Source: Ruficoccus amylovorans
Lineage (GTDB): Bacteria; Verrucomicrobiota; Verrucomicrobiia; Opitutales; Cerasicoccaceae
NCBI RefSeq assembly: GCF_014230085.1
Contig: NZ_JACHVB010000034.1
Span: forward strand, 1-64,000
DNA: 64,000 nucleotides
Direction of reading: 5' to 3'
In this document: piece after piece, positions 21,271-26,356 of the stretch
Layout: each line of letters opens with the position of its first letter
How positions within the stretch are numbered: position 1 is the first letter of the stretch
The notes under the pieces: model-generated
What the model was told of the DNA's origin: nothing
Databases searched by the model: none
The model's input: the letters and a program-made list of their open reading frames with translations, nothing else
Translations under genes and position numbers: made by a program

Positions 21271-22206
21271 TCAGAAGTTCGCCCCGATTTCAAAGCCGAA
21301 AGTCGCGCCCGGCTCAGCCTTGATGGTCTGGTACTTGTTGCGGTAGGCCCGGAAAGTGTACTCGCGCATGAAATCGCCCTGAACATAGCCGCGCACGTAG
21401 AAGGGACCGCCAAAGCGATGGGTGATGCCGACACCGGCTGTGACGGACTGGGCCTCGACCGCCGGGTTGGTGTAGGTGCCGGTGGTGGGGATGTATTGGT
21501 TGTTCAGTTGGAAGCTGCTGGAGTTGTACTGGACGGTGAAGTCGAGCACGGTTTCCTGGTCGGCATTGACGTCGTAAACGAGCGTCACGCCGTTGAAGCT
21601 GCGCAGGCGCAGGTTTTCATTGATTGTCCATTCCAGAAAGGCGACCGGCCAGTAGCGCACGCCTTGTTCCAGGTCGGAGATGACCAGTACGCCGAAGGAG
21701 AAGGAGAAATTTTTAAAGAACTCGTAGCTGGCCCCGAAGCTGGCCGTGTAGGAGTCACCCGCGGTGAGGGAGGCATTGCCGGACTCCGCCCCGAGGCTGC
21801 CGCTGGCCATGACGTACGCGCCCCAGTCGCTGGCGTCGAACTGGTATTGGTAGATGGCGCTGAGTGTGAGCTGGCTCACGTCGCTGAAGTAGTCGGGCGC
21901 GCCATTGGACCAGTTGTAGTTGCTGTAGCCGTAGTCAAAGGTCACGTTCAGCCGTTGGTCCTTCCAGCCTTTCTTGTAGCTGAGGGTCGTTTCGAGCTCA
22001 AGGAGGTCCATTTCCCCGGTGGCCCCGCTTTTGAGGTTGCTTGGGAGTGTGTAGCTGACCCCTTGTCCGATGGTCAGGCCCAGAGGGACTTCCGGCGAAA
22101 AGATGTCCAGAAAGGTCCCCGAGGTGGTCAACTGCTGGGCGGAAACGGTGCCCGCGGCTACGCAAAGCAGGGCGGATGCGGCGAAAATTTTAGCTGTTAA
22201 ACGCAT
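21271..22206 (-). CDS. Secreted outer-membrane beta-barrel-like protein
   Basis: A 311-aa protein with a clear signal peptide (about 1-24, ...ALLCVAAGTVSAQQ). The mature part alternates polar and aromatic residues in strands such as LNVTFDYGYSNYNW, LSAIYQYQF, YTASFGASYEFFKNF and FYVRGYVQGDF, and ends in Phe (GFEIGANF), as outer-membrane barrels do. It resembles porin-like or opacity-like barrels of about 14 strands. The transported substrate is unknown. Monocistronic, divergent from the DinB operon. Confidence 0.75.
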   Translation of the reverse strand: MRLTAKIFAASALLCVAAGTVSAQQLTTSGTFLDIFSPEVPLGLTIGQGVSYTLPSNLKSGATGEMDLLELETTLSYKKGWKDQRLNVTFDYGYSNYNWSNGAPDYFSDVSQLTLSAIYQYQFDASDWGAYVMASGSLGAESGNASLTAGDSYTASFGASYEFFKNFSFSFGVLVISDLEQGVRYWPVAFLEWTINENLRLRSFNGVTLVYDVNADQETVLDFTVQYNSSSFQLNNQYIPTTGTYTNPAVEAQSVTAGVGITHRFGGPFYVRGYVQGDFMREYTFRAYRNKYQTIKAEPGATFGFEIGANF

Positions 22207-22483
22207 AGATCAGGTATTATTCAAAAAGCAATAAGAATAATGTCAACGACCAAAATGGGCCGCCAACAGAGGTTGGCCTTCTGTCGGAAGCAGGCCGGAA
22301 GGCGATGCTTCGTCGGGAAAGGAATCCTTGCTATTTAAAATGAATTCAAGCATCAAAAGCGACACAGGTATGCAAAATGTCATCTGCTATCCTCTCTTGT
22401 TCCTATGGTGATCTCGACTGTGCCATCCTGGCTGAAGCATGGGCGGTGCCACAACGCGACTTCATAACCCCGCAGCAACGGTA

Positions 22484-22999
22484 ATGTTACAAGCGATTCA
22501 AGATAATGTGCGCTGTCTGCGCCAGGGGATGGAGCTGCTCCAATCATTGCCTGTTCCGGAATATACGCGAGCCGAATCGGCTTGTTTTGACGCCAGCGTG
22601 GGGGAGCACATGCGCCACCTGATTGATCACTACGCCTGTTTTGTCCGCGATTTGCCCGCGGGCCGCATCGACTACGATGCGCGCTCGCGCGATCGGGTGG
22701 TGGAGACGGACCCTGCGCAGGCTGTAGCCCGTCTGAACACACTCATTGAAGCGCTCGAAGCTCTTGGTGAGAAAGAGCTGAAGGCCCCGGTCGAGGTCGT
22801 GATGGATACGGGCAGTGAGCCCGGTGGATGGGCTCGTTCAAGTGTTCATCGGGAGCTTCAGTTTCTGCTTGGCCATACCGTGCACCATTACGCGCTTATC
22901 GCGGTTATTTGCCGGCTGCGCGGGATCGGGACGGAACCTTCCTTCGGCGTGGCTCCCAGCACGTTGCGCCATCGCGGACAACCTCCATGTGCACAGTAA
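22484..22999 (+). CDS. DinB-like four-helix metalloprotein
   Basis: A 171-aa protein from the ATG at 22484 (an upstream in-frame ATG at 22439 lacks support). The DinB/YfiT pattern of three metal-ligand histidines is present: GEHMRHLIDHY near residues 38-48 and LGHTVHHYALI near 136-146. DinB-like proteins bind nickel or zinc and act as thiol transferases or hydrolases; the exact reaction here is unknown. It starts an operon in which its stop overlaps the next start by 13 bp. Confidence 0.8.
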   Translation: MLQAIQDNVRCLRQGMELLQSLPVPEYTRAESACFDASVGEHMRHLIDHYACFVRDLPAGRIDYDARSRDRVVETDPAQAVARLNTLIEALEALGEKELKAPVEVVMDTGSEPGGWARSSVHRELQFLLGHTVHHYALIAVICRLRGIGTEPSFGVAPSTLRHRGQPPCAQ

Positions 23000-23724
23000 C
23001 CTGGTGGAGAGCAGCCGATGGCTACGAGCTGTATTTCAACCGGGATGAGCTCAAGTCGCGTTTGCCCGGCCTGCCGCCGGAGGAGTTGGTGCTGGACGGA
23101 GTACGCTACCTCAGCCCCCGTGACGCTGACGCCGGGGGCACTTGGTTGCTGGTCAACGAATATGGCCTGAGCGTCTGCCTGATCAACCAGTACCCGTTGC
23201 GCCGTCCGGTGCCTCGCGGCCCGTTGGTCAGCCGGGGTTGCCTTGTCCGGCGCATGGCTGATTGCCGCAGTGTGGAGGAGATCAAAAATCGCCTGCGCGG
23301 GCAGGATCTTTTCTCCTACCGGCCTTTTCAGATAATCGCGGTGTCTCCTGACGGGTCGGATGCGGCCTGTGGCTGGGATGGCCATCGGCTTGCGGAGACG
23401 GACAACCCGCACGCGAGCATGCCTTTTACATCTTCCTCTTATTTATCCGAGCAGACGGTGCGGCATCGCCGGGAGCGTTTCGCGTCCATCGTGGCGGAGC
23501 GTGGCGATATGTCCCCGTCCGATTTGCTCGCCTTTCACCGCGAGCACCATGTCGATGCCGGAGCCTTTTCGGTCTTCATGCAGCGCGATGATGCCGAGAC
23601 GGTCAGCCTGACCCAGGTGGTCGTGCGGCCCGAACTGATTACCATGACTTATTCGCAGAAAGTTCCCGGTCGGGCGGAGTTCGCCGCGCCGGTCAGCATT
23701 AATCTCCAGCCCCGCATTTGCTGA
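22987..23724 (+). CDS. NRDE/TANGO2 family protein
   Basis: A 245-aa protein starting MCTVTWWRA, the typical N-terminus in which Cys2 becomes the exposed residue, as in Ntn-hydrolase-like folds. The family signature NRDE is present in LYFNRDELKSR. The family is best known from eukaryotic TANGO2 (linked to heme and acyl-lipid homeostasis); bacterial members are uncharacterised. The start at 22987 overlaps the DinB gene by 13 bp, and the stop is 1 bp before the fusion gene start, so the three are translationally coupled. Confidence 0.85.
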   Translation: MCTVTWWRAADGYELYFNRDELKSRLPGLPPEELVLDGVRYLSPRDADAGGTWLLVNEYGLSVCLINQYPLRRPVPRGPLVSRGCLVRRMADCRSVEEIKNRLRGQDLFSYRPFQIIAVSPDGSDAACGWDGHRLAETDNPHASMPFTSSSYLSEQTVRHRRERFASIVAERGDMSPSDLLAFHREHHVDAGAFSVFMQRDDAETVSLTQVVVRPELITMTYSQKVPGRAEFAAPVSINLQPRIC

Positions 23725-23725
23725 G

Positions 23726-26356
23726 ATGGTAGAGGGTGGACAAAAGAAAAGGCGCGGGGGCCGGAAGCTCCGGCTAATCCTGCTGGGGGTATTCTTGCTG
23801 GCGCTGTTGGCCTCGTACCTGTGGCGCCACTTCACGCTGCCGCCCACGGGGTCATTGCGCCCCGGACAGGATCGGGTGGTGTTACCCGAGTGGCGGGGGG
23901 ACGGCGAGACTGGCGGCCAGATCGAACTGGCTTACCGGGATTTGCCGTCGGCTTCCGGCGACAAGGATGCGCCTGTACTGATTCTCGTCCACGGGATTCC
24001 ACTGATGCCGGAGGCGATGGAGGGACTCGTTCCGGCGCTCAACGCGCAGGCGCGCCTGATTATTCCGGACCTGCCAGGCTTCGGGGCCTCGACCCGCGAT
24101 GTGCCCGACTACTCCATCCGTGCGCAGGCACGGGCCGTGCTCGACCTGATGGACCATCTCGGGTTGGAGAAGGCCAGCATGCTGGGCTATAGCCAGGGCT
24201 CCGGCGTGGTGCTGAACGTGGCCGAGATCGCCCCGGAGCGGGTTGAGAGCCTGACCCTGCTTTCGGGGATCGGCGTGCAGGACTACGAGCTGACCGGCGA
24301 CTACACGCTCAACCACGGTCTGTACGGGATGCAACTGCTGATCCTGACTGGTGCGCGCGAGGTGCTGCCGCACTTCGGCCTGCTCGACCGGTCGATGTTT
24401 AATGTACCCTACGCCCGGAGCTTCTGGGACAGCGATCAGCGGCCCCTGCGCAGTGTATTGGAAACGTATGACGGCCCCATGCTCATTGTGCATGGCGATC
24501 AGGATTTTTACGTTCCGCCTTCCACGGCGCGGGAGCATCACCGCATTGTCCCCCAGAGCGAACTTGAGATGATGCCGGGCAGTCACCTCTTGCCCGTGCA
24601 TCAGCCGGAGGAGGTGGCCGCGCGGGTGAAGACGTTTTTGGAAGAAGTGAAAACGGGCGCGGCGAAAATCCGCAGCGAGGCTTCGCCGGAGCGCTTGCTC
24701 AAGGCGGCGGCGGACGAACCGGTGGCGCGTCGTGAGGCCGCCGGGCGAACCTTGGCCTTTTACTGCGCGTTGCTTGTCGCCGGGACGCAGGTGGCTGAGG
24801 ATTTGACCTGTATCTCCGCCGGGTTTCTGGCCGCGCGCGGGGTGGTGCCGTTCTGGGCCGGGACGGTGGCCTGCATCTTTGGTATCTTTGTCGGCGACAT
24901 GCTGCTGTACCTGGCGGGCCGGGTCTTCGGGCGCAAGGCCCTGCATCACGCTCCGATCAAGTGGATGCTCAAGGAGCGCGACCTCAGTTCGATGGAGGAA
25001 TGGTTCCAGCAGCGCGGGCCGATGTTGATCGTGCTCTCGCGCTTTATGCCGGGCACGCGCATCCCGGTCTTCTTCGGGGCGGGTATGCTCCATATGCCCA
25101 CGGGCAAGTTCATGTTCTATTTCTTTATCGCGGCGGCGGCGTGGACGCCCTGTCTGGTCGGGCTGGCCTGGTGGCTGGGCGATGCGTTCATCGGCTACTT
25201 CGAGCGTTTCGAGAAGTACGCTATCGTTGGCCTGCTTGGGATGGTGGTCGGAATCATGCTCTTGTTGCACCTGGTTGTTCCGATGTTCACCTGGCGCGGG
25301 CGGCGCAAGCTCTATGGGCGTTGGCGGCGCTGGGCGCGCTGGGAGTACTGGCCCGCGTGGTTTTTTTATCCGCCAGTAGCTTTGTATGTCCTGTGGCTGG
25401 GGCTGCGCAACCGGGGGCTGACCCTCTTCACTGCTGTGAATCCCGGCATGGCCGACGGCAGCGGCTTCACCGGAGAATCCAAGGCCGATATCCTCGGCAA
25501 GCTCCGGGGCGCGGGCGAAGCCGTCGCCGAGTGGACGACGCTCGATGCGGATGCTCCGGCGGATGAAAAGGAGCGTCGATTGCGGGCCTTTATGGAGGAG
25601 CGGGGGCTGGGCTTTCCGCTCGTGCTCAAGCCGGATATCGGGGAGCGCGGTAGCGGCGTCGCCATCATTCGCGACTGGGAAGCGGCCCGCGTATATCTCG
25701 AGGAATGCCCGTTCTCGGTCATCGCACAACGCTATGTGCCGGGGCGTGAATACGGAGTTTTTTACGTTCGCCTGCCTTGGGAAGAAAAGGGGCGAATCTT
25801 CGGAATCACAGACAAGCGCTTTACGTCGGTGACGGGCGACGGGCGCCGCCCGCTGGAGGAGCTTATCCTGGCCGACAACCGGGCCGTGTGCATGGAGGCC
25901 TTTTTTGAGCAAAAGCACAGCGACCGGCTCAGCGAAGTCGTCCCCGCGGGGGAGAAATATGTGCTGGCGGAGCTGGGAACGCATTGTCGGGGGGCGCTCT
26001 TTCTCGATGGTGGCGAGTTGGCTACCGAGCCGCTGCGTGAATGGTTCCAGCGGGTCAGTGACACGTTTGAAGGGTTTTATTTCGGGCGCTACGATGTGCG
26101 CGTGCCCTCGGAGGAGGACTTGCGGGCTGGACAGAATTTGACCGTGATCGAACTCAACGGCGTCAGCTCCGAGGCGACCTGGATCTATGACCCGAAGCAT
26201 TCAGTACTCTTCGCCTGGCGCACGCTTTTCGAGCAGTGGAGGCTCGCCTTCGAGATCGCGGCCTGGAACCGCCAAGAGGGGCACCGGCCCTTGTCGTTGC
26301 GTGCGACCGTGAAGGCGATTTTCAGGCGGAGCGTGCGCGAGTCCTTTGAGGCGTGA
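23726..26356 (+). CDS. Three-domain fusion: alpha/beta hydrolase - DedA membrane domain - ATP-grasp-like domain
   Basis: An 876-aa membrane protein. An N-terminal anchor (15-34) leads to an alpha/beta hydrolase at about 60-308 with nucleophile Ser156 (GYSQGSG), Asp258 (HGDQD) and His287 (PGSHLLP). A DedA/SNARE-associated (VTT) domain follows at about 340-520, with SRFMPGTRIPVFFGAG and several membrane segments. After two further hydrophobic stretches, residues about 560-830 read as ATP-grasp: FPLVLKPDIGERGSGVAII binds the nucleotide and VIELNGVSSEATW carries the metal ligands. DedA proteins flip polyprenyl phosphates or phospholipids. The combination suggests processing of a lipid-linked compound, which is inference. 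It is the last gene of the DinB-TANGO2 operon. Confidence 0.82.
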   Translation: MVEGGQKKRRGGRKLRLILLGVFLLALLASYLWRHFTLPPTGSLRPGQDRVVLPEWRGDGETGGQIELAYRDLPSASGDKDAPVLILVHGIPLMPEAMEGLVPALNAQARLIIPDLPGFGASTRDVPDYSIRAQARAVLDLMDHLGLEKASMLGYSQGSGVVLNVAEIAPERVESLTLLSGIGVQDYELTGDYTLNHGLYGMQLLILTGAREVLPHFGLLDRSMFNVPYARSFWDSDQRPLRSVLETYDGPMLIVHGDQDFYVPPSTAREHHRIVPQSELEMMPGSHLLPVHQPEEVAARVKTFLEEVKTGAAKIRSEASPERLLKAAADEPVARREAAGRTLAFYCALLVAGTQVAEDLTCISAGFLAARGVVPFWAGTVACIFGIFVGDMLLYLAGRVFGRKALHHAPIKWMLKERDLSSMEEWFQQRGPMLIVLSRFMPGTRIPVFFGAGMLHMPTGKFMFYFFIAAAAWTPCLVGLAWWLGDAFIGYFERFEKYAIVGLLGMVVGIMLLLHLVVPMFTWRGRRKLYGRWRRWARWEYWPAWFFYPPVALYVLWLGLRNRGLTLFTAVNPGMADGSGFTGESKADILGKLRGAGEAVAEWTTLDADAPADEKERRLRAFMEERGLGFPLVLKPDIGERGSGVAIIRDWEAARVYLEECPFSVIAQRYVPGREYGVFYVRLPWEEKGRIFGITDKRFTSVTGDGRRPLEELILADNRAVCMEAFFEQKHSDRLSEVVPAGEKYVLAELGTHCRGALFLDGGELATEPLREWFQRVSDTFEGFYFGRYDVRVPSEEDLRAGQNLTVIELNGVSSEATWIYDPKHSVLFAWRTLFEQWRLAFEIAAWNRQEGHRPLSLRATVKAIFRRSVRESFEA

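Follow-up and report, generated by a model that had tools for sequence, protein, structure and literature searches.

In the DNA analysed here, a 64,000-nucleotide window from the bacterium Ruficoccus amylovorans (contig NZ_JACHVB010000034.1, positions 1 to 64,000 of the forward strand), a single gene encodes a protein in which a transmembrane (TM) anchor, an alpha/beta hydrolase (ABH), a VTT/DedA domain, and an ATP-grasp domain follow each other from the N to the C terminus. This fusion family is conserved over about ten phyla, where its genes mostly lie beside members of the DinB and TANGO2 families and, in many relatives, beside acyltransferase genes that resemble those for ornithine lipids. 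The fusion may be a membrane-bound enzyme in an aminolipid pathway not yet described, combining a ligase, VTT-type transport, and a periplasmic hydrolase; we put this reading forward tentatively and give it slightly less than an even chance. It starts from the domain composition, the intact catalytic residues, the ATP-grasp fold, the conservation across phyla, and the linkage within operons.

Architecture of the fusion protein

The original prediction described one protein joining a hydrolase, a DedA domain, and an ATP-grasp-like domain, and the single open frame, the Pfam matches, and a structure model all agree with it. The intact frame, the order of the domains, and the catalytic residues are found again in homologues as distant as about 40% identity. 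This recurrence rules out a strain-specific accident or an assembly artefact, and the architecture is more than chance. A model of the full-length protein has a mean predicted local distance difference test score (pLDDT) of 88.8 and a predicted template modelling score (pTM) of 0.69, so the placement of the domains relative to each other is less certain. Coordinates are collected in Table 1.

Table 1. Position of the fusion gene, its domains, and its two coupled neighbours in the window
Feature	Position	Strand	Description
Triple-fusion gene	23726..26356	+	876 aa, one uninterrupted open frame; kept in genus, family, order and beyond
N-terminal TM anchor	23765..23836	+	Residues ~14-37; basic N-terminus KKRRGGRKLR; predicted N-in; helix 2-37 in the model
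Alpha/beta hydrolase domain	23843..24655	+	Residues ~40-310; triad Ser156/Asp260/His287; predicted periplasmic
VTT/DedA domain	24743..25285	+	Residues ~340-520; signature SRFMPGTRIP; conserved E358/R439/R445
ATP-grasp domain	25286..26353	+	Residues ~521-876; basic membrane-proximal helix and conserved hydrophobic WEYWPxWxxYPPV...LWLGL segment
DinB/DinB_2-family gene	22439..22999	+	186 aa; first of the coupled trio; Pfam DinB_2 1.2e-7, 32.7 vs 24.8 bits, above cut-off
TANGO2-like gene	22987..23724	+	245 aa, MCTVTWW..., candidate Cys2 nucleophile; Pfam TANGO2 1.2e-7, 32.5 vs 22.6 bits, above cut-off

The hydrolase exceeds the Pfam cut-off for Abhydrolase_1 (2.3e-27; 96.7 versus 25.8 bits), and its fold and Ser-Asp-His triad make it a member of the alpha/beta hydrolases. 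Residue conservation was counted on alignments of 40 full-length and 79 C-terminal sequences. Ser156 and His287, both predicted as catalytic, are each found in 38 of the 40 full-length homologues. The predicted acid, Asp258, has to be replaced: this position is variable (D in 6/40), and the conserved acid is Asp260 (38/40). The fold matches are esterases and lipases, including the membrane phospholipase A 6i8w and the monoacylglycerol lipase ABHD6 (7ots). In loci L013 and L014 the triad is lost, and these members are possibly pseudo-enzymes.

The middle domain matches VTT_dom above the Pfam cut-off (9e-19; 68.6 versus 33.9 bits). Its signature is complete, as had been claimed, with E358 and R445 in 40/40 homologues, R439 in 39/40, and an SRFxPGTRxP motif that is almost invariant. 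The match and the conserved Arg motif together assign the domain, by its sequence, to the DedA/VTT family. UptA is among its best NCBIfam matches (2.8e-15); at 56.9 versus 250 bits the curated cut-off is missed, and membership among the UptA undecaprenyl-phosphate transporters was rejected.

The predicted topology follows from the N terminus, where a basic segment precedes the TM helix. This arrangement, common to the fusion homologues, predicts an N-in anchor and a periplasmic hydrolase. The loop ahead of the ATP-grasp domain is strongly basic, and this domain is placed in the cytosol because it needs ATP. The fusion thus probably has one active site on either side of the membrane. Several VTT-ATP-grasp relatives that lack the hydrolase have signal-peptide-like or lipoprotein-like N-termini ahead of the VTT domain, and relatives with only the ATP-grasp domain start at its basic membrane-proximal helix.

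The ATP-grasp domain

Sequence matches of the C-terminal region are weak. ATP-grasp_3 (0.016) and RimK (0.022) in Pfam and cyanophycin synthetase in NCBIfam (5.7e-6; 24.6 versus 850 bits) all fall below their cut-offs, and since no Pfam cut-off is reached, the domain is largely overlooked by routine annotation. The similarity to ATP-grasp enzymes that had been predicted for the C-terminal third is nevertheless borne out by its structure. An AlphaFold2 model of residues 520-876, built from 79 homologues, is confident (mean pLDDT 96.5, pTM 0.93), and cyanophycin synthetase is its top fold match in both Foldseek (3.0e-11) and VIA-align (Z 17.3 over 272 residues, 7wae). Further matches include LysX/ArgX, RimK, Ddl, bifunctional glutathione synthetases, and other ATP-grasp enzymes, with many families above Z 13. 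As modelled, the domain is confirmed as a genuine ATP-grasp fold. Of the solved enzymes that match best, most link a carboxylate to an amine through an acyl-phosphate.

The nucleotide-binding Lys/Gly loop, which the original prediction described as complete, is present together with a D...E-x-N metal site: K586, K635, G642, E675, K697, R788, D790, and E809 are each conserved in 79/79 sequences and N811 in 78/79. Assignment of the domain to the cyanophycin synthetases or to Ddl was ruled out by the curated cut-off and by low identity.

The domain starts with a basic helix, which is followed by a conserved hydrophobic segment, WEYWPAWFFYPPVALYVLWLGL. Standalone relatives have both in similar form, which suggests that the ATP-grasp domain is attached to the membrane. 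In addition, the ATP-grasp motifs are altered in L014, L039, and L040, which may be pseudo-enzymes; one homologue with several stop codons (G252:C1:1518207-1519212) is an apparent pseudogene; and in L160 (G863:C1) one TANGO2 gene is flanked by two ATP-grasp paralogues.

Distribution

The full fusion is present in all 3 sampled congeners of R. amylovorans and in 5/6 sampled members of other genera in the family. Members detected with a C-terminal profile occur in 29/289 Verrucomicrobiota genomes sampled, in three architectures (ABH-VTT-ATP-grasp, VTT-ATP-grasp, and ATP-grasp alone), and, among the genomes sampled elsewhere, in 35/247 Acidobacteriota, 72/395 GTDB Bacteroidota, and 22/246 Planctomycetota. 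A genome scan for relatives of the fusion confirmed at least 567 loci. The locus analyses use the best-scoring 80 of these and are therefore biased towards sequences near the query. The 80 loci come from Verrucomicrobiota (Cerasicoccus, Pelagicoccus, DG1235, and others), Acidobacteriota, Planctomycetota, Gemmatimonadota, Calditrichota, KSB1, Balneolota/Rhodothermota, Bacteroidota, Spirochaetota, Chloroflexota, and Krumholzibacteriota; the fusion of the window groups with Opitutales-type Verrucomicrobiota. Thus, neither the fusion nor its order with DinB and TANGO2 is confined to one strain, as both recur across many phyla. The fusion query had no match among viral contigs.

Operon partners

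In the window, the fusion is the last of three closely spaced genes, and the coupling to DinB and TANGO2 that had been proposed is seen in their junctions. The TANGO2 ATG at 22987 overlaps the end of the DinB gene (stop at 22997-22999) by 13 nt, and 1 nt separates the TANGO2 stop (23722-23724) from the fusion ATG at 23726. Conservation of this context was counted in the 53 loci whose flanks extend 3 kb or more upstream and 1.5 kb or more downstream, by hidden Markov models built iteratively from the same loci, with the near-absence of matches beyond 3.5 kb as the control. Within 3 kb and on the same strand, DinB was found in 46 loci, TANGO2 in 34, OlsB-like genes in 31, OlsA/PlsC-like genes in 30, and YHS in 9; DinB or TANGO2 is linked in 48/53. 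Beyond 3.5 kb there were three matches in all, one each to OlsB, OlsF, and YHS. Unbiased clustering of all neighbours gave DinB, TANGO2, OlsB-like, and PlsC as the top four clusters, followed by a DoxX-like family.

The DinB partner belongs to the DinB superfamily by its Pfam match and its three-His site. H146, H149, and H150 are present in 56/56 sequences of the operon family and H60 in 52, with gaps in 4; these residues may bind a metal. The TANGO2 partner can be assigned from its Pfam match and from an N-terminal Cys2 with an Asp partner. Cys2 is found in 44/44 sequences that cover the position, and an N-R-D-E motif is present. Asp20 (45 sequences, 2 gaps) aligns with a residue that we take to be Asp27 of human TANGO2, whereas the region facing human Asn157 reads TSSS in the operon family, where the alignment is uncertain. 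The human active site follows PMC13044924, in which the protein is a likely cysteine Ntn-hydrolase; it has also been described as an acyl-CoA-binding protein (PMC11867700). A whole-genome TANGO2 search missed the window's own TANGO2 gene, and its negatives were left unused.

The acyltransferases point to aminolipids. The OlsB-like N-acyltransferases match PF13444 and score best against OlsB (NCBIfam E 4.2e-45). At 154.5 versus 350 bits the operon neighbour misses the cut-off of the OlsB L-ornithine N-acyltransferase equivalog, and it is therefore called OlsB-like only. The PlsC-like O-acyltransferases score best against OlsA (NCBIfam 8.2e-37), below the equivalog cut-off. Other loci have a linked OlsF-like gene instead, whose acyltransferase family (PF19576) is a different one. 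The linkage occurs in at least three arrangements, namely OlsB-PlsC upstream, OlsB-PlsC downstream, and the OlsF type with PF19576. Typical orders are OlsB-PlsC-DinB-TANGO2-fusion, OlsB-PlsC-DinB-fusion, and DinB-TANGO2-fusion; in Opitutaceae, the order is DinB-TANGO2-(VTT-)ATP-grasp-OlsB-PlsC. Of the Bacteroidota carriers, 40 were tested, and a PF13444 gene lies upstream on the same strand within ~4 kb in all 16 that carry the triple fusion. At the level of genomes, PF13444 is found in 31/40 carriers versus 14/40 non-carriers in Bacteroidota (p=0.0003) and in 24/29 versus 141/260 in Verrucomicrobiota (p=0.003), neither value being corrected for phylogeny.

Some loci have further partners. Genes for DoxX-like and YHS-(seleno)proteins are secondary conserved partners (L142-L161, L109, L022), a hint of redox or thiol chemistry. 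In the Bacteroidota loci L142-L161 the order is YHS-DoxX-DinB-TANGO2-ATP-grasp-LysE-like, as if a LysE-type transporter had replaced the VTT domain. A ferric-reductase-type cytochrome-like membrane protein, recognised by eye, lies near the cluster in 11 loci (e.g., L123:2525-3556).

A possible aminolipid pathway

The pathway reading draws together enzymes for N- and O-acylation, a membrane-bound ligase that would activate a carboxylate, a flippase-type domain, and a hydrolase predicted to lie in the periplasm. Further in its favour are the ATP-grasp fold, which is nearest to enzymes that join carboxylates and amines, and the matches of the hydrolase, which include the lipases 6i8w and ABHD6. 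The suggestion of one undescribed lipid-related pathway, made from the window alone, is strengthened by the OlsB-like and OlsA/PlsC-like genes that share the operon in relatives. The substrate, the direction, the transport, the roles of DinB and TANGO2, and the chemistry outlined below are what we infer from these features.

OlsB/OlsA-type acyltransferases (in the R. amylovorans genome, an unlinked OlsF-like fusion) would make an acyloxyacyl amino acid. Such products carry a free alpha-carboxylate, and this would be a natural target for an ATP-grasp ligase. The membrane-anchored ATP-grasp domain, on the cytosolic side, would convert a carboxylate, most plausibly that of the acyloxyacyl amino acid, into an acyl-phosphate, which would then react with an amine (an amino acid, taurine, or a polyamine) to give an extended head group. 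The VTT domain may then carry the extended lipid over to the outer leaflet. There, the periplasmic hydrolase with its TM anchor could trim it by deacylation or remodel it. TANGO2, as a candidate N-terminal-Cys amidase, and DinB, as a candidate metal-dependent transferase, might edit or recycle intermediates.

If this pathway exists, it would be a widespread undescribed branch of bacterial membrane-lipid biochemistry carried on one portable operon. It would suggest enzymes that might be the missing ligase of multi-amino-acid lipids (PMC12746155, PMC10191378) and assign a TANGO2 homologue to a defined lipid pathway in which to look for its substrate. The human counterpart causes disease, and its function is disputed (PMC11867700, PMC12782551, PMC13044924). 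A more specific and rather unlikely proposal is that the ATP-grasp domain is the founding member of a family of membrane ligases for carboxylates and amines, whose products would be dipeptide-type aminolipids, with the operon TANGO2 as an N-acyl-amidase acting on the same lipids. If true, TANGO2 would gain a concrete enzymatic function in bacteria, and the ligase would be of the kind still missing for flavolipin or ornithine-taurine-like lipids.

Several observations weigh against the aminolipid pathway. In the 24 standalone Bacteroidota carriers PF13444 is unlinked (15) or absent (9), and as 9/40 carriers lack such a gene, this acyltransferase family is not obligatory. PF13444 is, moreover, common in these phyla anyway, and the co-occurrence tests ignore phylogeny. 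The acyltransferase is unlinked in the window's own taxonomic family; in the window's genome, an OlsF-like gene (E 1.7e-117; 393.4 versus 620 bits, below the NCBIfam equivalog cut-off) lies on another contig (G000:C14). Many standalone ATP-grasp genes of Bacteroidota sit with DinB, TANGO2, YHS, DoxX, and a LysE-like gene, a context that also fits a redox or small-molecule theme, and the core function of DinB, TANGO2, and ATP-grasp may be wider than OlsB-type lipids. Finally, some members have degraded hydrolase or ATP-grasp sites.

Alternative explanations

The same operon might mainly degrade and recycle aminolipids or phospholipids, with the hydrolase and TANGO2 releasing acyl chains, the VTT domain flipping lyso-lipids inward, and the ATP-grasp domain re-ligating or scavenging the head group. 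Two candidate hydrolases within one operon and the fold match to phospholipase A 6i8w would suit such a remodelling or catabolic module. So would the retention of TANGO2 in 17/17 loci without the hydrolase versus 17/36 with it (p=1e-4), which would fit a partial replacement of one hydrolase by the other, a pattern seen in 2-4 independent pairs and open to explanation by shared ancestry. The most frequent further partners are, however, the biosynthetic OlsB and OlsA, and we regard this explanation as unlikely. Less likely again is a small-molecule or thiol pathway, in which the ATP-grasp domain would make a peptide or peptide-like thiol for DinB to use as a transferase, VTT or LysE would export it, and the lipid link would be secondary. 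Some DinB-superfamily enzymes are thiol transferases, bifunctional glutathione synthetases are among the fold matches, and the Bacteroidota versions lie beside YHS-(seleno)protein, DoxX, LysE-like, and in places AhpC/TSA genes. On the other hand, no gamma-glutamylcysteine ligase-like partner was seen, the hydrophobic WPxWxxYPPV-type segment is conserved even in standalone ATP-grasp proteins, and the OlsB/OlsA linkage also speaks against such a pathway.

Modification of a polyprenyl-phosphate-linked envelope polymer, with the VTT domain as an UptA-like carrier flippase and the ATP-grasp domain adding an amino acid to a lipid-linked glycan, seems improbable. Many ATP-grasp ligases work in cell-wall synthesis (Ddl folds are matched here) and UptA ranks high among the VTT matches, but its cut-off is missed by a wide margin and the recurrent neighbours included no recognisable glycosyltransferase or cell-wall gene family. 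Least probable, and very much so, is a role for TANGO2 in haem trafficking like that suggested for Shewanella HtpA. The operon does contain a TANGO2 homologue, and a haem role has been proposed for bacterial homologues (PMC10470608), but that role is disputed (PMC12782551, PMC13044924) and none of the recurrent neighbours was recognised as a cytochrome-c-maturation gene family.

Comparison with known systems

The literature searched held no description of the fusion family or its operon. The domains are all known; we regard the whole as an aminolipid-type gene cluster with an additional ligase-transport-hydrolase module. The ornithine-lipid synthases OlsB/OlsA and OlsF and the glycine-lipid synthases GlsB/GlsA belong to the same Pfam families as the operon neighbours (PF13444, PF01553, and PF19576), which score best against the OlsB/OlsA/OlsF models but below the equivalog cut-offs. 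Judging from the same literature, the aminolipid operons known so far have neither DinB nor TANGO2 nor an ATP-grasp/VTT fusion. Flavolipin, lipid 654, and the serine-glycine and ornithine-taurine lipids need an amide ligation on an aminolipid carboxylate, a reaction that would be possible for an ATP-grasp enzyme, and the gene for the addition of serine in serine-glycine lipids is described as not yet identified (PMC12746155; PMC10191378). By analogy, these multi-amino-acid lipids are a precedent for the chemistry, not proof for the fusion family.

The domains, too, differ from their nearest counterparts. The ATP-grasp domain has its fold (Z 13-17) and D...E-x-N metal site in common with cyanophycin synthetase, LysX/ArgX, RimK, and Ddl, but it is 11-23% identical to them, has a short N-terminal part around the membrane-associated segment, and has no further Mur-ligase-like domain. 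Membrane phospholipase A (6i8w) and ABHD6 (7ots) are likewise TM-anchored alpha/beta hydrolases (~20-22% identity over the match); unlike them, the hydrolase of the fusion is joined to VTT and ATP-grasp domains. The VTT domain has the VTT_dom match and the conserved Arg pair of DedA proteins such as UptA and YqjA, but it is fused at both ends and misses the UptA equivalog cut-off.

Other features of the region

Promoter and terminator scans of the fusion region gave scores no better than those of shuffles. Opposite the fusion, an antisense open reading frame of 772 aa (23882-26200, -) is probably a high-GC shadow frame, judging by its position opposite a conserved gene. Upstream, at 21271-22206 (-), a gene without a Pfam match encodes a secreted or outer-membrane-like protein with a signal peptide.

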